Positions 1,516 to 49,000 of a stretch of 64,000 nt of DNA are shown here, piece by piece (the first letter of the stretch is position 1; each line of letters opens with the position of its first letter). A model generated the notes under the pieces. The model made no database searches, had not been told where the DNA came from, and saw only the letters and a list, made by a program, of their open reading frames with translations. Both the position numbers and the translations under genes were made by a program. Source of the stretch: Inonotus obliquus (taxonomy: Eukaryota; Basidiomycota; Agaricomycetes; Hymenochaetales; Hymenochaetaceae); assembly GCA_032164295.1 (NCBI GenBank), contig JAJHTX010000003.1:496001-560000 (forward strand). Reading direction: 5' to 3'.

Positions 1516-1574
1516 TATAAATTCTGCTTGAATACCCCAGCGACTCCTCAGAAAGCCAGCAGAGCGCTCTACAC
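1516..1574 (+). promoter_or_regulatory. Core promoter of repeat-protein gene 1 (TATA box plus conserved start block)
   Basis: TATAAA lies at 1516-1521. A 26 bp block beginning cagaaagccagcagag lies at 1549-1574, 33 bp downstream of the TATA box and 23 bp before the ATG. The paralogous gene at 5629 has the same TATA box and a block differing at three positions, at exactly the same 33 bp spacing. The block therefore probably spans the transcription start and the 5' UTR. Confidence 0.6.
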
Positions 1575-1597: not shown

Positions 1598-2995
1598 ATG
1601 AAGTTCAACGCCATCTTTGTTGCCTCCGCTCTTGTCTTCGCGTCAACCGCGATGGCCGCCCCTGCTCAGGTTCGTGCCCTTCATGTTAAGTGTAGTTCCC
1701 GTTGTAGTTACTGACGAATGACTCGCACACAGGGTGTGGACCAGTTGACGAATGCTGGTTCGGTCGATGCGCTCACGAATGCGGGCAGCGTTGACGCATT
1801 GACTAACGCGGGTTCGGTCGACCAACTCACGAACGCCAGGTTCCGTCGAAGTGGCTCGGTTGACCAGCTTACGAATGCTGGCTCCGTTGACCGCCTCACT
1901 AACGCAGGCTCCGTTGATGCTCTGACCAACGCGGGTTCCGTTGATCAACTCACGAATGCAAAGGTTTGTCTTGGTAATACAAGCAAGGGTGTGAGACTAA
2001 TGCGTTTGGCATACTTCAGAGGTCTGGCTCTGTCGATGAGCTGACGAACTCTGGTGTTGATGCTCTCACCAATGCCGGGTCCGTTGACCAATTGACGAAT
2101 TCTGGGTCCGTTGATCGGCTCACGAATGCTGGCTCTGTCGACCAGCTAACAAATGCAAAGGTATACTCCCACCTCTCAATTAGAGATCTGAATGTGTGAC
2201 TGAATAGTTTCTCCTACCATATAGAGAAGCGACTCTGTTGATGCACTCACGAATGCGGGTTCGGTTGACCGGTTGACCAACGCCGGATCGGTTGACCAGC
2301 TGACCAACTCCGGCTCGGTCGACCAACTGACGAATGCGAAGGTTCGACGGGCCGACTCGGTTGACCAACTCACCAATGCGGGTTCAGTCGACCGACTCAC
2401 CAATGCAGGGTCGGTTGACGCACTGACGAACGCTGGTTCTGTCGACGCGTTGACAAATGCCGGATCGGTTGACCAACTGACGAATGCCAGATTCCGCCGG
2501 GCCGACTCGGTTGACGCGCTGACCAATGCCGGTTCTGTTGACGCGCTGACCAACGCCGGCTCCGTCGACGCTTTGACGAACGCTGGTTCGGTCGACCAGC
2601 TGACGAATGCGAAACTGCGCCGTGCAGATTCGGTTGATCAACTTACCAATGCGGGTTCAGTCGACCGACTCACCAATGCAGGGTCGGTTGACGCACTGAC
2701 GAACGCTGGTTCTGTCGACGCGTTGACAAATGCCGGCTCGGTTGACCAGCTGACGAATGCCAGATTCCGCCGGGCCGACTCGGTTGACCTTCTTACGAAT
2801 GCCGGTTCTGTTGACAAGCTGACCAACGCCGGCTCCGTCGACGCATTGACGAACGCCGGGTCTGTTGACCAACTGACGAATGCGAAGGCTCGACGTGCGG
2901 ACTCGGTTGACGCGCTGACCAATGCCGGTTCTGTTGACAAACTGACGAATGCTGGTTCAGTTGACCGTCTCACCAATGCCGGTCGTCGCTTCTGA
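1598..2995 (+). CDS. Secreted KEX2-processed repeat protein 1 (candidate RiPP/KEP precursor), 404 aa
   Basis: Four exons with GT..AG introns, all phase 0: 1598-1669, 1733-1963, 2020-2160, 2225-2995. Exon 1 (24 codons) is a signal peptide starting MKFNAIFVASA and ending AAPAQ. The rest is about 38 units of the 9-residue repeat [AS]GSVDxLTN, where x is Q, A, R, E, K or L. Dibasic sites (RFRR, KVRR, KLRR, KARR, or K|R formed across exon junctions 2/3 and 3/4) cut the array into nine blocks of 3-5 units. The protein ends AGRRF. Such a layout is that of fungal KEX2-processed repeat proteins: secretory entry, then kexin cleavage into near-identical peptides. There is no transmembrane segment after the signal and no catalytic domain. 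The paralogue at 5629 shares the signal exon and promoter. Start chosen by the signal peptide and the caccATG context. Peptide function is unknown; structural cell-wall peptides and modified RiPPs are both possible. Confidence 0.8.
1733..2989 (+). repeat. Coding 27 bp tandem repeat array
   Basis: The body of repeat-protein gene 1 is a degenerate 27 bp tandem repeat of about 38 units, interrupted by two introns and by short dibasic linkers. The absence of stops in the repeat also opens long antisense frames, which I take to be artefacts. Confidence 0.8.
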
Positions 2996-3273
2996 ATGAG
3001 GATCTTCTGGTGCCATGTCGGTTGTGAATAAACAAAAAAAACTTGTATATTGTTGGAATACGTTGTAGAACCATGTAGAGCAATATGTACAATTGTTGGG
3101 CTCTGTTTCAGAAGGACCTTATCCCCATGATACTCGGTCCATTGATATGCTTCATTCAATTCGAAGTTCGGAGCACTTTGCTTGAGTCCTAAGCACATCC
3201 CGGTTTATGCTTGGGAGTATTCGTTGTATTCAATCAATCGGAAAGTTTGAACTCGATGCGGAATACCGCTAAA

Positions 3274-4137
3274 CTACGCATAGATGACGGGAACTTCCAA
3301 ATCATCCTCCACATAGACGCTACGATCGAAAGGGGTGCGTAAGCGGTGTTCACTCGCCCACTGGGCAGTTCGGTCGTAATCATTGCACGTATGTAGTACA
3401 TATCCCGTGGGATTTACTTGCCTGTCTTTCGGATCCCATTGCCATACGTATGTGGAAAGGTCTTCATTGCATATGAGAGACTGACGAATAGCGTCGAGAC
3501 AGTGACAAGCGTGTGGAGGTTCGAGCCTTCGAGGAATGATCGTTCAGACTTGCGAGGTTTTTCTTTCGAAGGTAATCGGGAGAGAGTTCCATTCGTATCG
3601 TGTTCTTCCATAGACTGTTATTGGAGTTTCGTAGAAAAGAGTTTACAACAGAGCACGTACAAGGCATTGGAGTTGGTGGAAAGCAAATGTAATTTCCGCC
3701 CGATCCTGCAAGTTGATACGTCTTATTGGTCAAATTTTCCGCTACACTTCTTGGTATTTCGGAGATTCCGACTAGAGCAATGGTGAGGCTCTGTTCCATT
3801 TGCATGGCTGAAGCGAACTAACACCTATAAAGATCCTGCCAGGCCTGATCAACTTCTTCGGAAAGCTCTCGTTGGTAAATCGTGGCATCATGATCGAACC
3901 CTTCGAAGAAGCTCTGGATTCAGACGTAGGATATTACGATAAGTAATTATGGAAAACCGGAAATTGCTGAGCTTTTGCTGTAGTACAAGCCGATGAGGAC
4001 AACGTTGAGAAATGTTTGCGCAGGGAAAACGGTGAACAGGAAGTGACGACAATAGGATGGAGTTTCTCAGTTTCTCCCATTCATTCGTTGCTGTCCGATA
4101 CAAGAGGGTGAAAATCGATGTCTTCATGCTTCCCCAT
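3274..4137 (-). pseudogene. UstYa-like (DUF3328) oxidase, disrupted
   Basis: Read on the minus strand, the pieces follow the order of the UstYa/DUF3328 family. They are: a start beginning MGKHEDIDFHPL; a transmembrane stretch around FLFTVFPAQTFLNVVLIG; the segment SEEVDQAWQDLY; GISEIPRSVAENLTNKT; then HQLQC (first HxxHC motif, with second His replaced by Gln) and HACHCLDAIRQSLICNED (second motif), followed by W-D-P and HTC-N-D-Y-D to a stop at 3274-3276. In dikaritin clusters UstYa/UstYb proteins are the membrane-bound oxidases that cyclise kexin-released core peptides, so its place between the two repeat-precursor genes is telling. The pieces sit in different frames that normal introns do not reconcile: I count at least three frame breaks plus an in-frame TAA after the first motif. 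It looks decayed, although assembly error cannot be excluded. Confidence 0.65.
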
Positions 4138-4323
4138 GGTGAAATCTCAGGAGGTAACTACTGACGGGTTGAGGACGAGATATGGGTAAGAAAGGTCCAG
4201 TCCCAAGTATTAAAGCGACAGCTGAGAGCTCACCCTCCATACTGCGCATCCTAGTTATCCTGATTGCAAGTCATGAGGCCATTACAAGGCTGGACTGAGT
4301 GTCCGCAAGATTTGACTAACGAT

Positions 4324-4806
4324 AGGAACAGGTCAGCCAGACGGACTCTCCTAACGATGTCGCGGGGAACCACGCTTTCCTCGACGATATTGAGGCAAAC
4401 GAGTCTTCGAATCCCGCATCTTCTACTAACTCACTCTGGTTTCTCCAACAAGCAAGACGGTTATCCCGCGAGGAACGGATCCCTCATAAGAGCTCGTTCT
4501 CGACGGTGCGACCATGAGCTAAAGCGTGTTCGGCCGTTATCATGCCAAGAACGATTAGAAGGTGGAATCCATGAGCACTCCGTAAGTCGCGGAGAAGCTA
4601 TCATTGTTACTCCTGTGGAAGGTGCAAAGAGTAGAATTGGAGTCGAGGACGAGGTTGAGGACCGTACCTGGGTGATCGGTGTTAAAATCTGCTTTACGGG
4701 AAATTCCGAGGAATCCACCTCGCGAGTCGCTTTATGTAAACAAGATGGGTCATTCACTTGCCTTGTTGAGCGAGAGCAGACAAGGAGGACCGTTCAGGAG
4801 GTTTAG
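4324..4806 (+). other. Coding-like remnant, family unknown
   Basis: Two plus-strand stretches have protein-like composition. One (about 4329-4510) reads through SLWFLQQARRLSREERIPHK. The second runs to a stop at 4804-4806 and includes TWVIGVKICFTGN. They lie in different frames without clear splice sites. I do not recognise the family. They could be exons of a decayed gene in the repeat-peptide locus or chance open frames. Confidence 0.2.
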
Positions 4807-4989
4807 GAATGCAATTAGACATGCCTGATGGTATGGTATCTTGCCCTGGCTAAGGCTGGCGTCTGTGTCGAATGCACCATTTTGCTATCAAACTTCTCTG
4901 CTGTTTCTCCGGGGTGTAATCGAGACCAATAACTCAGATACTTAGCGGGTTGCAGGACGACCATTGCTTTAATTCCAATGTGAATACAA

Positions 4990-5440
4990 TGTTCTCTACG
5001 TCGACGTCGAGAAAAGCTTTCTTATCTTGGATGCATCGAGCAAATCACCACATTTGCTTGGTGTAGCTCGCAATAGCTTCTTGCAATTCTAGAAGGCCTC
5101 TAATGGACTGTAGACCACCGTTTGCCACAAAGATCTTCTCCATCACTTGATCTAGATGTGCCGTGTGTGCAACCGATATCAGATGAAATGTATCTCTGTC
5201 TCAACTGCGTGAAAGGGCGTGAAAGGCACTCTTATAATACCTTCAAGCATGCGTTCATGACATGATTCTTTCATGTTCTGGGTGAGCATTGGCCAACTTT
5301 TCACATTTTCCAAATTCTTTCTCAAATCCTTGACGTCTAGACATCGCCGACATGACCGGGAATGACTTGGCAGCTTCCTCCAACTGCTTCTTCCATCCGC
5401 TTACGGTCTCGCACGATCACCATTTGATCTAATTGGAAAG
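4990..5440 (-). other. Coding-like remnants on minus strand, family unknown
   Basis: Minus-strand pieces near 5430-5270 (containing KKQLEEAAKSFPVMSAMS) and 5150-5050 (containing MEKIFVANGGLQSIRGLL) read like helical protein exons. No start, splice pattern or family could be established. The remainder of 4807-5525 shows nothing I can name. Confidence 0.2.
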
Positions 5441-5525
5441 AGGAGCAGCTGGTCAAACTGAAGTTCTGTCACGAAAGAAAAAAAAGAGTAGAAAAAAGGG
5501 AGAAACTAATGAGATGTTGAAAGAC

Positions 5526-5584
5526 TATAAAGGTTGCTAGTTACATCGCAATAATCTACAGAAAGCCAACAGAGCCTTCTACAC
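5526..5584 (+). promoter_or_regulatory. Core promoter of repeat-protein gene 2
   Basis: TATAAA lies at 5526-5531 and the conserved block beginning cagaaagccaacagag at 5559-5584. The spacing matches the promoter of the paralogue at 1598. Confidence 0.6.
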
Positions 5585-5628
5585 GACCTCAGCTCCATTT
5601 CTCCAGCACACTAATCCAGCCTTACACA

Positions 5629-6464
5629 ATGAAGTTCAACTCCATCTTCGTGGCGTCGGCCATTCTCCTCGCAACAACCTCCTCTGCTGCACCGTCTAAG
5701 GTTCGTATCGAACCCAACTATATGCCCAGTCCGCATAGTCACTTAAACAGCTTCGTGATTAGAGCCTCGGTTCCGTCGACCAGCTTACGAACAACCGTCG
5801 CGGCAATTCCGTAGACCAACTGAGGAACTCGGGCTCCGTTGACCAACTCACGAATCATAAGCGTAGCGACTCCGTCGATGAACTCACGAATCATCGCAGC
5901 GGCAGCTCCGTCGACGAAGTGACGAACTATAGACGCGGCAACTCTGCTGACGGAGTGACGAACTATAAGCGCGGCAACTCCGTTGACAAACTCGCCAACA
6001 ATCAGCGTGTCGACGAAGTGACGAACTATAAGCGTGGAAACTCCGTCGATGAAGTGACGAACTATAAGCGCGGCAACTCCGCTGACGATCTCACCAATTA
6101 CAAGCGCGGCAGTTCCGTTGACGAACTGACCAACAATCAGCGTGGCAGCTCCGTCGACGAGGTGACGAACTATAAGCGTGGCAACTCTGCTGACGAACTG
6201 ACGAACTATAAGCGCGGCAGCTCCGTTGACAAACTCGCCAACAATCAGCGTGGCAGCTCTGTCGACGAAGTGACGAATTATAAACGCAGCAACTCCGCTG
6301 ATGAATTGACGAACTATAAGCGTGGCAACTCCGTCGACGAACTGACGAACCATAAGCGTGGCAGCTCCGTCGACGAACTCACGAACCATAAGCGTGGCAG
6401 CTCCGTCGACGAACTCACGAACAACAAGCGTGGCAACTCGGTCGACGGACTCACAAACTACTGA
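5629..6464 (+). CDS. Secreted KEX2-processed repeat protein 2 (candidate RiPP/KEP precursor), 257 aa
   Basis: Two exons: 5629-5700 and 5763-6464, with a 62 bp phase 0 intron ending gattag; the alternative acceptor at 5750 hits a stop. Exon 1 is a 24-codon signal peptide starting MKFNSIFVASA, paralogous to the gene at 1598 and identical in length. Exon 2 encodes about 20 units of a 12-residue repeat, consensus G[NS]SVDELTN[YHN]KR, so nearly every unit ends in a kexin KR, RR or QR site. Kexin plus carboxypeptidase trimming would release near-identical decapeptides such as GNSVDELTNY. One precursor, many KR-bounded copies and a Tyr in the core is the design of ustiloxin/phomopsin-type dikaritin precursors; an unmodified KEP is the alternative. 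A UstYa-like remnant lies 1.5 kb upstream and an MFS transporter 0.5 kb downstream in convergent orientation. Confidence 0.8.
5763..6461 (+). repeat. Coding 36 bp tandem repeat array
   Basis: Degenerate 36 bp tandem repeat of about 20 units forming the body of repeat-protein gene 2. Each unit encodes one KR-bounded peptide. The long antisense open frame (5739-6389) is a by-product of the repeat. Confidence 0.8.
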
Positions 6465-6944: not shown

Positions 6945-8717
6945 TCAGCCAGTCTTTGCCTTCATATTCCTCCACAACGTCAAGAACAGGATCGCTCCGA
7001 CACCCAATAATGCCATCTGTACCCCGATGTACTTTTCCATTCCCACCTGTACTCCAGCACCTCCCCACACAGCACCGCTTACACGGCCACTGAAGTTACT
7101 GTATTGGATCGCGAGGCTCAGGCGACCATTCCACTTCTGATGCAGTTGTTTGCTCAGCAAGCTTATCGTCACCGTACTGGCAACGTTGAAACCAAGGGCG
7201 ACGAGGAACCAACAGACGAAAAATGACCCGAAGGTCACCTTGTCGAAGTGGATGACCAGTAGCGTGAGAAGGAGACCCAGGAAGCCTGTGAAAGCTCCGA
7301 AGGCGAGGATGAAACGGTCCGCGATCCGGCGAACAAGGAATAGGTTGAGGAAGAGGAAAGGGAAAATAGCAATACCACCAAGAGCGATGAAATTCCCAGC
7401 GGCGAATGGAGACCAGTTGAACTCGGCCTCGGTAAAGACGGCAATATTTGATTCCCAACCACTCAGCGTGAAAAAACAAGTCATAGCAAACCAACACATC
7501 GTGATGATCACACCCCACTGCCGCACCGAGATTTGCTCCGCCTCATCAATTATTGACGGAGTTTGCGAGCGCGAGACAAGTGAAGATGATGTAGCACTGG
7601 GAACGACCGTTTCTGCGACCGCAGCGTCATCGGACTTTGACTTCGACTCGAGCTCGATTGCAGGTTCCTCGCGTTGTTCTGGGTGCGCATCTGGCACGTC
7701 TTCGAAGAACATCGCAACGGCCACCCAGTAGACTGCCCAGAGAGCCGCCATAACCCACCCCGGGCTTGTCATACCGTTGAAGATTCTGTTGCCAAAACCA
7801 ACTTTATACAACAATCCTGAAGGCATATTCAGGAACGAGCAGAACCGGAGAAATGATTGCTTATTACCTCCCATAAACGGTCCAACGCTGCAACCTATTC
7901 CCTGCCCGATGACAAGCCACCCGGCCAGAGTCGTCCGCCTACGGATACCCACGATCCGACCATCCGAGCAGTAGCGTTTCTACCGATATCAAAGGCCATA
8001 CTTCATACGTTTACCGTACCATGATGGCTCCAACTGCACTTACCGAATACATGAAGTTTGCCATTGCCAAACCGATCACAGACCTTCCGATGAGGATAAG
8101 CCATAGAAAGTTGGCGTACTAGACACAACGGTTAGTCTCAAATGAGATTCAACGTGGTTCCAGGGAACGTACATAGGCCAGGCCGTACAAAATGTGCCCG
8201 ATAATGGCAAAAGCGCACGAAAAGTGAATTGGCCTACTATATTTTCCTAACGCGGGCAATAATTCTCAGAAGAACAAAATACCGCATCATAAAGAAGGAA
8301 CATACCCTGGTCATATTTCAGGAGAAAAGGCAAAGCAACACCAGCGAAAACAACTGGTATACCAAGCACAAGACCGGAAAACGTCGCGGTTCCCCCAAGA
8401 AACTCGGAGTATCTACTTGCTGATGATACAGGAAGAAACATGGTTATCTTTGAATCAAATCAAAACTGGAACCTTTATGACAACATTACATCACTCACCT
8501 GGGACATAATGTTCAACGTAATGACAATCACAAGCGACGACATCCTAGGCAGCCTCAACTCGGGATCAGGCTCGGAATTCTCGACATTGTTAACGACCGT
8601 CTGAGGATGATCGATTGTGCTGCGGCTGATCGGTAACGACGACGCTCTGTTTACGTTCGAACGTCGCTTGAAAACCTGGTTCAGCTTGGATAGCGTCGCC
8701 GTTGAATTGAGCAACAT
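6945..8717 (-). CDS. Major facilitator superfamily transporter, 514 aa
   Basis: Five minus-strand exons with consistent phases: 8717-8499, 8447-8306, 8246-8173, 8118-8044, 7979-6945. The product is 514 aa with a cytosolic N-terminus, then hydrophobic segments in a 6+6 pattern separated by an acidic, Ser-rich central loop (from about DVPDAHPEQREE to SIIDEAEQ). Motifs such as LGGTATFSGLVLGIP, LIGRSVIGLAMANF and GWESNIAVFTEAEFNWSPF resemble the MFS branch that includes SPX-MFS and MFSD8-like vacuolar/lysosomal carriers. The substrate cannot be read from sequence. The gene is convergent with repeat-protein gene 2, so it could export or store the peptides, but an unrelated vacuolar role is as likely. 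The upstream sequence in frame is open without an ATG until a stop, so 8717 is taken as start. Confidence 0.8.
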
Positions 8718-17552: not shown

Positions 17553-17565
17553 TTACCCCCTCTTC
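17553..17565 (-). promoter_or_regulatory. Polypurine tract
   Basis: Minus-sense GAAGAGGGGGTAA directly abuts the 3' LTR, as expected for plus-strand priming. The pol stop codon TAA is its last three bases. Confidence 0.85.
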
Positions 17566-18839
17566 AAGGTTGGGCGTCCCGACCAACCCTTTGAACGATC
17601 CGGCTCAGTATACTGGAAGATTGGCTTGAACGTTTTCATTCCTCGAGCAATGAAAGCTCGGGGAGCGCCTGGGTGTTTCTTGTAAAAGTCGTCGATGGCC
17701 TCATTAGAGTTTAGAATGAGGTTATCGTGTGGTTCCCAAGTGGTTTCATCATAACCCTTCCATCTGACGAGGAATTGAAGCTTTCCTCGATGTTTGCGTG
17801 AATCCAGAATTTCGTCGACCTCATATTCTTCCTCTCCGTCGACGAGTTCTGGTGGAGGTGGAGGCGGTTTCTTCTGTCCTTCGAAAGTTGGTTCAACGTA
17901 TGGTTTGAGGAGTACTTTGTTGAAAACCGGATGTACCTTCTTCCATGTTTTAGGTAGCTTTAGTTTGTATGCAGCTGCTCCAACTTTTTCTATGACGTCG
18001 AAGGGACCATACCATTTGTCCGCAAACTTTCGAGTGGGCCTGACCGTAGTGATGTTTCGTCCTTCCAGCATAACCTTGTCTCTAACCGTATATTCTACGA
18101 CATCAGCCGCTTGTTGATCATGCGCCTTTTTCATCACGTTGTTTGCTTTCACCAGATTGTCTTTTGCTTGAGAATGTGCTTGTTTAAGTTCTTTAGCGAA
18201 TTCTTCAGTTGACAGATTATTGGATGTCGTGTGGATTGTCCCTGGATCGAGAGGATTAAGACTGGTATTAACGAAGAAAGGAGACATTTTAGTCGACGAA
18301 TGTTCCCGGTTGTTGTACGCGAACTCCGCAAGGGCTAGCCACTCTGACCAATCCGACTGTCGATGGTTAACGTACATCCTCAGGTACAGTTCAAGTTCTT
18401 GATCAACTCGTTCTGTTTGTCCGTCCGTTTGAGGATGGTATGCCGTCGATGGGTTTCCTTCAATATGAAGTAGCTTGTACAGTTCCTTCATAAAATCAGC
18501 GTCGAATTGAGGACCTCAATCGTGGACAATCTTTTTCGGAAGTCCATGTAACCTGAAGACATGATCACGGTAGAGTTTTGCCGTTCCTTGAGCTGTGATC
18601 TTCGTTGTCGTCGGGATTGCATGTATTTGTTTTGAAAACTTATCAATGATAACGCAAATTGCATTGTACCCATTCGACTCAGGGAGTTCACCAACGAAAT
18701 CAACCAATATTGTCTGCCATGGACCTTCTGGAACGTCATGTGGATGTAAGGTTCGTCATTTGGGTTGTCTAGACGGTTTGGTTCTCTGACAAATGTCGCA
18801 TCCTTTTATGTATCTGAGGACGTCGGGTAGCATTCCAAA
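17553..18839 (-). pseudogene. Integrase with chromodomain (pol C-terminus), stop-interrupted
   Basis: Minus-strand reading: CDICQRTKPSRQPK (zinc-finger end of integrase), VDFVGELPESNGY and CVIIDKFSKQ (catalytic core), then YHPQTDGQTERVDQELELYL with the third catalytic acid. Next comes the GPY/F module (KWYGPFDVIEKVGAAAYKLK) and a C-terminal chromodomain (EYEVDEILDSRKHRGK through LVRWKGYDETTWEPHDNL). The chromodomain would steer integration to methylated-histone chromatin. A TAG follows RKFW, a TGA follows SRQPK, and a TGA sits between KKIVHD and GPQFDADFM where Arg (CGA) is expected. The end overlaps the PPT. Confidence 0.88.
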
Positions 18840-28532: not shown

Positions 28533-31057
28533 CAAGACTCTTCTATCAAAACGTCTCTACAGACAAGGAATTGCGTGATGCATCCAGCCAGGCGGAAGTC
28601 CTCGTCAGAGGCTTCCTTGTAGAGATTGAAATGCGCGTCGATGTATTTCAGGCAAAGAAGAACGCAGAAGCTAACATCAAAGCTCAAGGCGTGAATCTCA
28701 GCCCAGAGGAGCAGAGGCTAGTCGACAGGATGTTGCTTGATGGCAAACGTGCAGGATTGGATCTTCACGAAGATAAGAGGAAGCTCCTAACGATCAAAAA
28801 GAAGCATCTGTCGCAGCTTTGCGTGGAATTCAGCGTAAGTGGTTTCGGACGTGTCGTAATTCGCATGATTTTACAATGAACTTTCGAACAGAAACATTTC
28901 AACGAAGAAGCTGCGAGTTTATCCACCTCAATTGTTGTCAAAGCACGCTAAGTCGAGGGATTCTGTAGGGAAAAATCTACTTCACAGAAGATGAACTGAA
29001 AGGGGTTCCTGCGGACATGAGAAGCGTTTCGAAGGAGGCAAGGTCACCTACGGTGTTACGCATAAAACTCCAGATGTATTCCCTCTGGTGCGCACCCTCG
29101 TCTTCTGTAATTATCTTCATCTCAACGTGGGTCACAGTTCAAATACGCGCAAAACCCCGAGACGCGTAGGAGAGCTTTCTCAAGCTACGAGGATCGTCTA
29201 AAGGTGAACGTCCCGATACTGAACATGGTACTCGAAATTCGTCGCGAGCTTGCCCCGATTCTCGGCTATGCAACATGGGCGGACTATATCACTGAAGAGA
29301 AGATGGCTAAATCCGCCAAGGGCGTAAACGAGTTACGTTGGCTGGGAAAATAAGTGGCAATCAACAATGACTCATTCATATGTGTCAAGTTCCTTGACGA
29401 TATTGAGCAAAAACTGCGCCCTGTCGGTACGAAGGATCGCGCCACTCTGCTGGCTTTGAAGCAGAAAGAACACGAGTCACTGGGGCTTTCCTTCGATGGC
29501 GAATTCTACATGTACGCATTGCTTCCTTGGGCCATATTCTCGATATGAGCTGAGATGCGTTAATGTCTTAGCTGGGACTATCGCTATTACGATAGGAAAT
29601 ATACCGAGGAACATCTTTCGCTTGATGACTCGCTCGTCAAAGAGTATTTCCCCGTGTCCTTTGTCGTCCCTGCTGTCCTCATGGTTTATCAAACCCTTCT
29701 CGGTGTTCGCTTCGAGCCGATCAAGACGGCTGAGCTCTGGCATCCAGGTCTGTCAATTTTGTCTGGTACCACTGAGGTGCACCCTCATTAGATTATGTGC
29801 AGATGCGGAGCTATTCGCAGTATGGGAACAGGATGCCAAAGACGAGAGCGGCTTCGTAGGATATTGCCATTTAGACCTCTTCCCTCGAGGTATTTCCATC
29901 TCTATGTCTGTATGATGATAAGAATCTCACAGTGACCTCTCAGAGGCAAAATATTCACATGCAGCGGTCTGGCCACTAATCCCAGGCTACGATCTTCCTG
30001 ATGGAAAGCGGAACTATCCTGTTACTGCCATGGTAGCGAACTTGGCGAAACCGACTCCTGAACGACCTGCGCTTATGCGACACGACGATGTCGTGACATT
30101 CTTCCATGAAATGGGCCACGTCTTCCACGGTCTTCTCAGAAAGACACGGTTCCCGCGTTTCCATGGAACGAGGTGAGTGAATCGTCTGCGTTGATTTTGC
30201 GTTAATCACTTATGCATTTGTGATAGCGTTGCCCGGGACTTCGTCGAGGCGCCGTCTCAGATGTTAGAGAACTGGTATGGCTCTGTTTCAGATTCTGCTG
30301 TTCGCGATCTAATTCCCAACCAGGTGCTGGGAACCCAAAGTTCTGAAGCGAATGTCTCAGCACTTCGAAAAGAAAGAGCCTCTGTCGGATGAGCTCATCA
30401 AGAAGATCATAGACAGGTGAGCATTCTAAAGATCCTTCCCGGTAGCGTGGCTCTAATGCCTTGCCATAGTCGATATATCAACGTCGGATTATTCTACCTC
30501 CGGCAACTCTTCTTCGCCAAGTTTGACATCAAAGTCCATACTGACCAGAGTACGGCCCTTTCGCGATTCCAAGGCCCTGCTTTGACTAATCTTCTGCATT
30601 GTAGAATCCGAAGACTACACGGCATTGTGGAACAATTTACGGGAGTCAATCTACTTAGTGAAAGGCCCGGATGTGCCCGAATCTGGTCAGGGCACGTTCA
30701 GTCATATCACTGGCGGTTACGATGCCGGTTATTACGGGTACGAATCTCAGCCCTTCAAACAGACTTTCTTCAACTCGCTAATCTCTCTCGTTCAGATACA
30801 TGTATTCTCTCGTTTTCGCTGCTGACATGTACGCGACTGTCTTCAAGAAAGATCCACTAGATCCAGAACCTGGAAAGAGGTACAAGAATGAGATCTTACT
30901 TCCAGGAGGTAGCAGAGACGAACTGGATTCTTTGAAGGTGCGTCTGAATCATCCGAGTGACAAGGGAATTACTTTCTTATACTTTCGGTTATAGCACTTT
31001 CTGGGTCGTTCGTCGAACTCTGCGGCGTTCTTGGAAGCATTGTTCGGATCGTCTTGA
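28533..31057 (+). pseudogene. Truncated M3 oligopeptidase copy (inverted duplicate)
   Basis: From about 28533 this matches the reverse complement of the intact gene at 46046-49085, introns included, so it is a DNA-level copy. It lacks the first ~170 codons. Downstream of GVPADM about a dozen bases present in the intact copy are missing, shifting the frame. The zinc motif HEMGH and the C-terminal GGYDAGYYGY region are still readable. Homology runs past the stop (31055-31057) to about 31330. Confidence 0.85.
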
Positions 31058-46045: not shown

Positions 46046-49000
46046 TCAAGACGACCCGAACAATGCTTCCAGGAAGGCCGTAGAGTTCGGCGGACGACCC
46101 AGGAAGTGCTATAACCGAAAGTATCAGAAAGTATTACTTTGTCAGTCGGATGATCCAGACGCACCTTCAAAGAATCCAGTTCGTCCCTGCTACCTCCTGG
46201 AAGTAAGATCTCATTATTGTACCTCTTTCCAAGTTCTGGATCTAGTGGATCTTTCTTGAAGACAGTCGCGTACATGTCAGCAGCGAAAACGAGAGAATAC
46301 ATGTATCTGAACCATAAATTAACGAGGTGAATGGTGTTTTGAAAGGTTGAGATTCGTACCCGTAATAACCGGCATCGTAACCGCCAGTGATATGACTGAA
46401 CGTGCCCTGTCCAGATTCGGGCACATCAGAGCCTTTCACTAAGGAGATTGACTCCCGTAGATTGTTCCACAATGCCGTGTAGTCTTCGGATTCTGTAATG
46501 CAATGAATTAGTCCAAACAGGGCCTTGGAATCGCGAAAGAATCTTACTCTGGTCAGTATGGACTTTGATGTCAAATTTGGCGAAGAAGAGTTGCCGGAGG
46601 TAGAATAATCCGACGTTGATATATCGACTATGGCAAGGCATTAGAGCCACGCTACCGGGAAGGATCTTTAGAATGCTCACCTGTCTATGATCTTCTTGAT
46701 GAGCTCATCCGACAGAGGCTCTTTCTTTTCGAAGTGCTGAGACATTCGCTTCAGAACTTTGGGTTCCCAGCACCTGGTTGGGAATTAGATCGCGAACAGC
46801 AGAATCTGAAACAGAGCCATACCAGTTCTCTAACATCTGAGACGGCGCCTCGACGAAGTCCCGGGCAACGCTATCACAAATGCATAAGTGATTAACGCAA
46901 AATCAACGCAGACGATTCACTCACCTCGTTCCATGGAAACGCGGGAACCGTGTCTTGCTGAGAAGACCGTGGAAGACGTGGCCCATTTCATGGAAGAATG
47001 TCACGACATCGTCGTGTCGCATAAGCGCAGGTCGTTCAGGAGTCGGTTTCGCCAAGTTCGCTACCATGGCAGTAACAGGATAGTTCCGCTTTCCATCAGG
47101 AAGATCGTAGCCTGGGATTAGTGGCCAGACCGCTGCATGTGAATATTTTGCCTCTGAGAGGTCACTGTGAGATTCTTATCATCATACAGACATAGAGATG
47201 GAAATACCTCGAGGGAAGAGGTCTAAATGGCAATATCCTACGAAGCCGCTCTCGTCTTTGGCATCCTGTTCCCATACTGCGAATAGCTCCGCATCTGCAC
47301 ATAATCTAATGAGGGTGCACCTCAGTGGTACCAGACAAAATTGACAGACCTGGATGCCAGAGCTCAGCCGTCTTGATCGGCTCGAAGCGAACACCGAGAA
47401 GGGTCTGATAAATCTCGAGGACAGCAGGGACAACAAAGGATACGGGGAAATACTCTTTGACGAGCGAGTCATCAAGCGAAAGATGTTCCTCGGTATATTT
47501 CCTATCGTAATAGCGATAGTCCCAGCTAAGACATTAACGCATCTCAGCTCATATCGAGAATATGGCCCAAGGAAGCAATGCGTACATGTAGAATTCGCCA
47601 TCGAAGGAAAGCCCCAGTGACTTGTGCTCTTTCTGCTTCAGAGCTAGCAGAGTGGCGCGATCCTTCGTACCGACAGGGCGCAGTTTCTGCTCAATATCAT
47701 CAAGGAACTTGACACATATGAATGAGTCATTGTTGATTGCCTCCTATTTTCCCGGCCAACGTACCTCGTTTACGCCCTTAGCGGATTTAGCCATCTTCTC
47801 TTCAGTGATATAGTCCGCCCATGTTGCATAGCCGAGAATTGGGGCAAGCTCACGGCGTATTTCGAGTACCATGTTCAGTATCGGGACGTTCACTTTCAGA
47901 CGATCCTCGTAGCTTGAGAAAGCTCTCCTACGTGTCTCGGGATTTTGCGCGTATTTGAACTGTGGCCCAGGTTGAGATCAAGATAATTACAGAAGATGAG
48001 GCTGCGTACCAGAGGGAATACATCCGGAGTTTTATGCGTAATACCGTAAGTGACCTTGCCTCCTTCAGTTCGCTTCTCATATCCCGAGACAACGTCAGCA
48101 GGAACCCCTTTCAGTTCCTCTTCTGTGAAGTAGATTTTTCCCTACAGAATCCCTCGACTTAGCGTGCTTTGACAACAATTGAGGTGGATAAACTCACAGC
48201 TTCCTCGTTGAAATTTTTCTGTACGAAAGTTCATTGTAAAATCATGCGAATTACGACACGTCCTTAATAACTTACGCTGAATTCCACGCAAAGCTGCGAC
48301 AGATGCTTCTTTTTGATCGTTAGGAGCTTCCTCTTATCTTCGGGAAGATCCAATCCTGCACGTTTGCCATCAAGCAACATCTTGTCGACTAGCCTCTGCT
48401 CCTCTGGGCTGAGATTCACGCCTTGAGCTTTGATGTTAGCTTCTGCGTTCTTCTTTGCCTGAAATACATCGACGCGCATTTCAATCTCTACAAGGAAGCC
48501 TCTGACGAGGACTTCCGCCTGGCTGGATGCATCACGCAATTCCTTGTCTGTAGAGACGTTTTGGTAGAAGAGGACGGGTTCGAGTAGTTGCAGATCGGCC
48601 TCTGCCTTTGAGAGTTCTACAAACACCTAAACAACGATGGTGAGTATGCATTGCATTTGCAGGAAGATCACAAGGCTTACGGATTCAAAGTTGCACTCGC
48701 TCGCATCAAGAGCAGCGATCTTATCGAACACTTGCTTTACATTGTCAATCGTCTTCTTCACGAGCTCCTGAATGTCCCCAGGTGTGTGCTTCCACGTCGG
48801 CGGAGGCTGGGGCGGGGTGAGAGCTGACATATTTGTGGTAGACAGAGAAGAGGAGAGGAAGGAACTTGTTGATGCGAAGCGACTAAATGAAGGTATCTTG
48901 GCCAAGGATGGGCGACTCAGGATAGAGGTCACGAGCGCGTTCCTTGTGGGTGATGTCGATGGCGATGGCGATAGAAGCACATAGTGTCTCTTTCGTACGG

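Follow-up and report, generated by a model that had tools for sequence, protein, structure and literature searches.

SVDxLTN repeat precursors paired with UstYa-type oxidase genes in Inonotus obliquus most likely form a dikaritin-like peptide locus

What is made from the two genes of repeat proteins, genes 1 and 2, that lie near the start of a 64-kb stretch of Inonotus obliquus DNA (C3:496001-560000, C3 being contig JAJHTX010000003.1; hereafter the window) in a genome of 36.07 Mb and 30 contigs? An initial annotation had read them as two paralogous precursors processed by Kex2. Their coordinates, anatomy, and SVDxLTN repeats were as it had claimed, but the family was not confined to two genes and has a third member, gene 1b, outside the window. 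Each of the three precursor genes lies back to back with an oxidase gene of the UstYa type, one of them broken, which suggests a new peptide pathway. Since UstYa homologs define the dikaritins and each precursor of the family is paired with a UstYa-type gene, this is most likely a dikaritin-like locus of ribosomally synthesized and posttranslationally modified peptides (RiPPs) in a basidiomycete, with an undescribed core; genes 1, 1b, and 2 probably encode secreted, Kex2-processed repeat precursors of such a pathway. Their secretion, cleavage, oxidation, product, and role are predicted here from sequence.

The gene models are given in Table 1. The first exons of genes 1 and 2 are both 72 nt long in the spliced models, as expected from the matching 24-codon signal exons proposed earlier. 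In genes 1, 1b, and 2 alike the first exon reads, by eye, as a basic start, a hydrophobic stretch, and a cleavage end of small residues, and the three genes have in common a TATAAA box and a 5' leader segment, with the box at -82 in gene 1b. The introns of gene 1 (63, 56, and 64 nt) and the single intron of gene 2 (62 nt) are all GT-AG. By tally, gene 1 contains 38 nonapeptide SVDxLTN units in nine dibasic-ended blocks (two KR and seven RR) plus a terminal F, the same numbers of units and blocks as annotated. Its dibasic sites are confined to block ends, and both KR sites arise exactly across exon junctions. Gene 2 had been described as about 20 twelve-residue units, nearly all ending in KR, RR, or QR, and the tally of 12 KR, 2 RR, and 3 QR agreed with this; 19 of the units were found by pattern, and one RVDEVTN unit was missed by it. 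The residue following the Asn of the unit in gene 2 is Tyr in 10 of the 20, Asn in 5, His in 4, and Ser in 1, so Tyr is not fixed at that position. Genes 1 and 2 are paralogues encoding putative precursors.

The repeats and their dibasic sites exceeded chance. With up to one mismatch allowed, the SVDxLTN pattern was matched 53 times in the window against 0.25 expected, and none of 100 shuffles reached 53. For gene 2, neither the 14 dibasic (KR/RR) sites nor the 11 dibasic spacings of 12 or 24 residues were reached in any of 10,000 shuffles. Units within each precursor differ mainly at synonymous sites. The proportions of synonymous (pS) and nonsynonymous (pN) change between units were 0.71 and 0.10 in gene 1 (36 of 38 units, those matching SVDxLTN) and 0.55 and 0.11 in gene 2 (18 of 20 units). 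The units left out were two in gene 1 that start with GVD, the only deviant ones in its tiling, and SVDQLRN and RVDEVTN in gene 2. The pN values are lowered by construction, because the units were chosen by pattern; that of gene 1 drops to 0.02 once the variable codon is left out, a value that is not independent evidence because the pattern fixes the other six residues. The informative part of the comparison is the wide synonymous spread at the fixed residues.

A pattern search of the whole genome found, among the one-mismatch places listed, motif runs at least at gene 1, at gene 2, and at C3:486927-488388 on the minus strand, along with single sites and a cluster on contig C10; a protein search of the genome with gene 2 returned the same places. 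The minus-strand run lies in gene 1b, 9 kb upstream of gene 1. The first 186 residues of genes 1b and 1 are identical, and there are 4 nucleotide differences in this part.

A genome-wide search with PF11807 (UstYa) gave 13 pieces grouped into 9 places, both counts being lower bounds, and three of these nine are the genes divergent to genes 1b, 1, and 2. The start codons of the divergent pairs are 1,667 bp (gene 1b), 1,691 bp (gene 1), and 1,492 bp (gene 2, measured from the apparent start of the broken copy) apart. Both intact copies yielded models of up to 276 residues (271 with the preferred splice sites) carrying the motifs HQLHC and HARHC, and the 271-residue model scored 177 bits against PF11807 (cut-off, 25). 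When this query was aligned with 11 proteins picked from the best 120 of 284 matches, the first HXXHC was invariant, as were H196 and C197 of the second motif, with H193 nearly so. The closest relatives of the intact copies were from Sanghuangporus vaninii (ACEPAH_4053; 73% identity, full length) and Fomitiporia mediterranea (80% over 62%, a partial protein), both Hymenochaetaceae, and no solved structure matched the UstYa protein by sequence at an E value of ≤0.1. The gene 1/UstYa and gene 1b/UstYa pairs form an inverted duplication, with 97 to 98% identity across about 1.1 kb of the UstYa arm and 89% across 1.5 kb of the precursor arm; in the mid-intergenic region there was no match over 200 nt. 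Precursor and oxidase genes seem to have been duplicated together, in one event that founded the gene 1 and gene 2 lineages and in a recent one that gave the inverted duplication.

How these genes relate to known systems was judged from the accessible text of the sources cited. KEPs, the Kex2-processed repeat proteins, are defined as having a signal peptide and, between KR, KK, RK, or RR sites, three or more repeats of 8 residues or longer, none of them exceeding 100 residues; 7,878 of them, in 838 types and with 2,560 standing alone, were reported from 1,345 of 1,461 strains (PMC7329392). The dibasic-bounded pieces number nine in gene 1 and eleven in gene 1b, each with a terminal F in addition, and fifteen in gene 2, so all three come under this definition, as do the KEPs of Coprinopsis, Lentinula, and Pleurotus (Agaricomycetes). 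Dikaritins are KEP-derived peptides cyclized by UstYa homologs (PMC10512285), and UstYa carries HXXHC motifs (PMC12048977). Like the dikaritins ustiloxin, phomopsin, asperipin-2a, and victorin, the present family combines a signal peptide and Kex2-separated repeats with an adjacent UstYa gene with two HXXHC motifs; genes 1 and 1b have the dikaritin gene layout with an intact partner, whereas the UstYa copy nearest to gene 2 is broken. The UstYa-type gene beside each precursor is what a dikaritin-type RiPP predicts, and the pairing supports and strengthens the earlier interpretation of the genes as built like dikaritin precursors and KEPs. Unlike in these dikaritins, the host is a basidiomycete, the core is SVDxLTN, and that of gene 1 is long and free of Tyr. 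In the literature searched, the characterized dikaritins were ascomycete products, and those KEP peptides that had been detected in basidiomycetes were linear; no characterized basidiomycete dikaritin was found there, with subscription texts and supplements largely beyond reach, which is no proof of absence. A UstYa (DUF3328) gene lies within 15 genes of 103 of 1,680 basidiomycete KEPs (6.1%) (PMC7329392), so such pairing is uncommon in the accessible survey data but was counted before. What is new is most likely the core, the class and the KEP-DUF3328 pairing being known already. In agreement with the earlier remark that no family with an SVDELTN core had been described, neither Pfam nor the protein searches brought one up; the latter scored just those candidates with the most words in common, and a repetitive composition may lower scores, which makes absence from them weak evidence. 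The term SVD had 0 occurrences in the main text, supplements aside, of PMC9769878. The Kex2 repeat layout is also that of alpha-pheromone-like basidiomycete KEPs with STE13 sites (PMC6339444), but an STE13-type alpha-pheromone precursor was ruled out, as no fragment of genes 1, 1b, and 2 starts with XA or XP.

If the precursors are processed in the dikaritin manner, the signal peptide would direct each into the endoplasmic reticulum, and a membrane-anchored UstYa-type oxidase from the divergent neighbor gene would oxidize residues of the repeated core by cross-linking or desaturation. Kex2 would cleave after KR and RR in the Golgi, Kex1 would trim the basic residues, and many similar peptides would be released per precursor. 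Two P_proprotein matches in the genome show that a kexin-type processing enzyme is present. Genes 1 and 1b would give peptides of 29 to 48 residues, nine being predicted for gene 1, in keeping with the longer repeat peptides foreseen for it. Gene 2 had been expected to give decapeptides like GNSVDELTNY. Cutting it in silico at KR and RR alone produced 15 pieces, of which 9 were decapeptides and 6 were 13 to 22 residues long, because QR is outside the KEP-defining sites and some units have no basic end. GNSVDELTNY itself is a consensus that is nowhere encoded; the nearest encoded cores are GNSVDEVTNY, GNSADELTNY, GNSVDGLTNY, and GNSVDELTNH, and GNSVDEVTNY is an example of a decapeptide that gene 2 may release. 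Computed [M+H]+ values are 1097.4745 for GNSVDEVTNY, 1083.4589 for GNSADELTNY, 1039.4691 for GNSVDGLTNY, and 4792.3255 for a 48-mer of gene 1. Since its own oxidase is broken, gene 2 would depend on the intact copies acting in trans, or else its peptides would be linear. The products are most likely, as far as can be predicted, interaction peptides.

Several observations weigh against a dikaritin-like pathway. Ustiloxins, asperipin-2a, and phomopsins cyclize through Tyr (PMC7329392), and the repeats of genes 1 and 1b have none. The peptides of gene 1, at 29 to 48 residues and without Tyr, are not classical dikaritin cores; lack of Tyr bars the gene from the Tyr-ether subgroup, not from working like a dikaritin. 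In the accessible survey text, Tyr is present in 65.6% of the repeats of DUF3328-accompanied KEPs and in 38.2% of those of other KEPs (PMC7329392), so a UstYa-paired precursor lacking Tyr belongs to the minority but is not unprecedented. In phomopsin, residues are also desaturated by UstYa homologs (PMC10512285), and by analogy desaturation would suit the Tyr-free core of gene 1. The UstYa copy by gene 2 has an in-frame stop after 18 codons, similarity spread over two frames, and HQLQC in place of HQLHC. No precursor from Sanghuangporus vaninii turned up in the precursor protein searches despite the 73% identity of its UstYa protein, and a conserved precursor-UstYa pair is therefore not established. 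Nor was a KEP visible near the UstYa places of contig C5 in four scanned stretches (C5:2397501-2403500 lay outside the scan), so UstYa is not in every case a sign of a KEP in this genome.

Some of these observations bear on an alternative, that Kex2 and Kex1 yield linear, unmodified or minimally modified peptides and the UstYa genes act elsewhere or are left over. Linear peptides with minimal modification are what the accessible account reports from four Agaricomycetes (PMC9769878), and such KEP peptides are known from Coprinopsis, Lentinula, and Pleurotus; both the broken copy by gene 2 and the Tyr-free cores of gene 1 are consistent with this. However, UstYa places are few (at least nine in 36 Mb), yet every one of the three precursors has one as its divergent neighbor, intact in two cases, and gene 1 was duplicated jointly with its UstYa gene. 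We therefore regard purely linear KEPs as possible but rather doubtful.

It is improbable that genes of the gene 1 type encode self-assembling structural peptides, with the 29- to 48-residue blocks forming beta-rich fibrils at the hyphal surface in the manner of Ustilago maydis Rep1. Rep1 is cut into ten peptides of 35 to 53 residues and one of 228 residues, which form surface-active, amyloid-like fibrils (PMC4617103, accessible text). Gene 1 resembles it in its Kex2-separated repeats and in the length of its nine predicted peptides. AlphaFold2, run in single-sequence mode on exon 4 of gene 1, gave about one strand per nonapeptide (mean predicted local distance difference test [pLDDT] score, 73.7; predicted template modeling [pTM] score, 0.70), against a pLDDT of 40.3 for gene 2, and re-ranking of the Foldseek chains placed curli CsgA and solenoids first. 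However, only one model of five was confident (the others scored 56.9, 56.7, 45.5, and 37.6), repeats can fold spuriously in silico, and Foldseek with the gene 1 model gave no match at an E value of ≤0.001, the CsgA/solenoid ranking being a reordering of its 204 chains. The likeness considered is one of peptide length and predicted fold; unlike Rep1, gene 1 has a nonapeptide substructure and a UstYa partner, a fibril of its peptides is putative, and the pairing with UstYa is left unexplained. A combination of both ideas, in which the Tyr-free peptides of genes 1 and 1b would be UstYa oxidized (through, for instance, desaturation or cross-linking of Val, Asp, Leu, or Asn side chains) and also folded into a beta-solenoid or fibril, alongside short decapeptides from the same family, is a long shot; if true, it would amount to an oxidatively tailored, self-assembling mushroom RiPP. 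Finally, although the precursors are known here from their genes and the number of blocks varies (9 in gene 1 and 11 in gene 1b), it is very unlikely that they are secreted cell wall or matrix proteins that stay uncut, with incidental dibasic sites, given the number and spacing of these sites in gene 2 and their placement in gene 1 at block ends only, two of them exactly at exon junctions.

For the preferred reading, a dikaritin-like pathway, intact UstYa partners duplicated with their precursor make it directly testable whether mushrooms make oxidized Kex2-type RiPPs, and the Tyr-free core raises the question of what UstYa enzymes can do besides forming tyrosine ethers. Paralogues that pack one motif into decapeptides or 40-mers would show a single precursor family exploring product size.

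Table 1. Positions of the precursor genes, the UstYa-type genes, and the transporter gene
Feature	Position	Strand	Details and basis
Gene 1b, third precursor	C3:486909-488550	-	Model of 486 aa, 46 units, 11 blocks + terminal F; outside window
UstYa, partner of gene 1b, intact	C3:490498-491135	+	PF11807 search; start codon C3:490217
UstYa, partner of gene 1, intact	C3:494989-495626	-	PF11807 search; start codon C3:495907, 94 bp before window
Gene 1 TATAAA box	window 1516-1521	+	82 bases 5' of start codon
Gene 1, whole	window 1598-2995	+	4 exons, 404 aa (spliced model)
Gene 1 exon 1, signal-peptide exon of 24 codons	window 1598-1669	+	MKFNAIFVASALVFASTAMAAPAQ; spliced model; signal peptide read by eye
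Gene 1 exon 2, nonapeptide repeats	window 1733-1963	+	Spliced model; dibasic K/R formed at exon 2/3 junction
Gene 1 exon 3, nonapeptide repeats	window 2020-2160	+	Spliced model; dibasic K/R formed at exon 3/4 junction
Gene 1 exon 4, nonapeptide repeats in RR-ended blocks + stop codon	window 2225-2995	+	Spliced model, repeat tally
UstYa type (PF11807), partner of gene 2, broken	window 3277-4137; PF11807 piece C3:499346-499699	-	Genome search + frame reading
Gene 2 TATAAA box	window 5526-5531	+	103 bases 5' of start codon
Gene 2, whole	window 5629-6464	+	2 exons, 257 aa (spliced model)
Gene 2 exon 1, signal-peptide exon of 24 codons	window 5629-5700	+	MKFNSIFVASAILLATTSSAAPSK; spliced model; signal peptide read by eye
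Gene 2 exon 2, about 20 twelve-residue units mostly KR/RR/QR-ended + stop codon	window 5763-6464	+	Spliced model, repeat tally
Major facilitator superfamily transporter, main exon, flanking gene 2	window 6948-7979	-	PF07690, 47.2 bits, cut-off 33.4
Two UstYa places	C3:451642-454393		PF11807 search
Four UstYa places on C5	near C5:2383749-2385190 and C5:2418562-2420005		PF11807 search

A protein search with gene 1 gave one match at an E value of ≤1 among 7,990 scored candidates, a Fomitiporia protein (84 bits), and the search with gene 2 gave none among 7,995. The Fomitiporia protein has decayed SVDxLTN-like repeats and no visible signal peptide; similar decayed repeats stand at about residues 145 to 317 of an open frame of 440 residues at C10:821657-822976 (plus strand). 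The N-terminal flank of the C10 frame has weaker relatives in the genome, in matches that leave out the repeats. Open frames of retroelement type are found close by, and the C10 frame resembles a mobile-element-like gene that has captured a fragment of a precursor. In the Pfam scan of the precursors, DUF6633 scored 31.2 bits on gene 1 (cut-off, 27), yet no single stretch passed, and all other matches were under the cut-off; these were all taken as repeat noise.

A scan for KEP-like precursors covered ten sequences, the window and nine other stretches. It revealed an unrelated KEP-like precursor with LEQSF-KR units at about C3:455784-456243 (plus strand), some 40 kb from the family, with a signal-like exon (read by eye) and three units with EA after the dibasic site; this gene adjoins two UstYa genes, a second such association that speaks for the dikaritin-like reading. 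The UstYa gene pairs at C5:2383749-2385190 and C5:2418562-2420005 have equal scores and opposite orientations and are probably another inverted duplication.

Among the other neighbors, the transporter beside gene 2 might, speculatively, serve as an exporter, and a speculative role in the pathway could be given to a cytochrome P450 at about C3:481.3-482.6 kb (Pfam; its first piece under the cut-off). As a further difference from the ascomycete dikaritins, no tyrosinase, methyltransferase, or peptidase was present among 19 open-frame pieces of the surroundings scanned by Pfam, which do not comprise all neighbors. Between the arms of the inverted duplication lies a threonyl-tRNA synthetase gene (C3:492090-493382, minus strand), the strongest such match in the genome. 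The idea of a self-resistance copy was dropped: its best piece scored 170.5 bits against 44.6 and 43.2 elsewhere, and with the other matches far weaker, this is probably the gene for the housekeeping enzyme. As exons were scored separately, none of the pieces attains the cut-off set for the whole gene. Farther into the window are an exon of a HAD-superfamily hydrolase gene (PF00702; 11464-12348, plus strand), retroelement pieces with a Tf2-type SH3 domain and a chromodomain (17556-18515), and an inverted repeat of 1,747 nt, 97% complementary, at 29013-30759 and 46338-48084, which is probably a transposable element pair.

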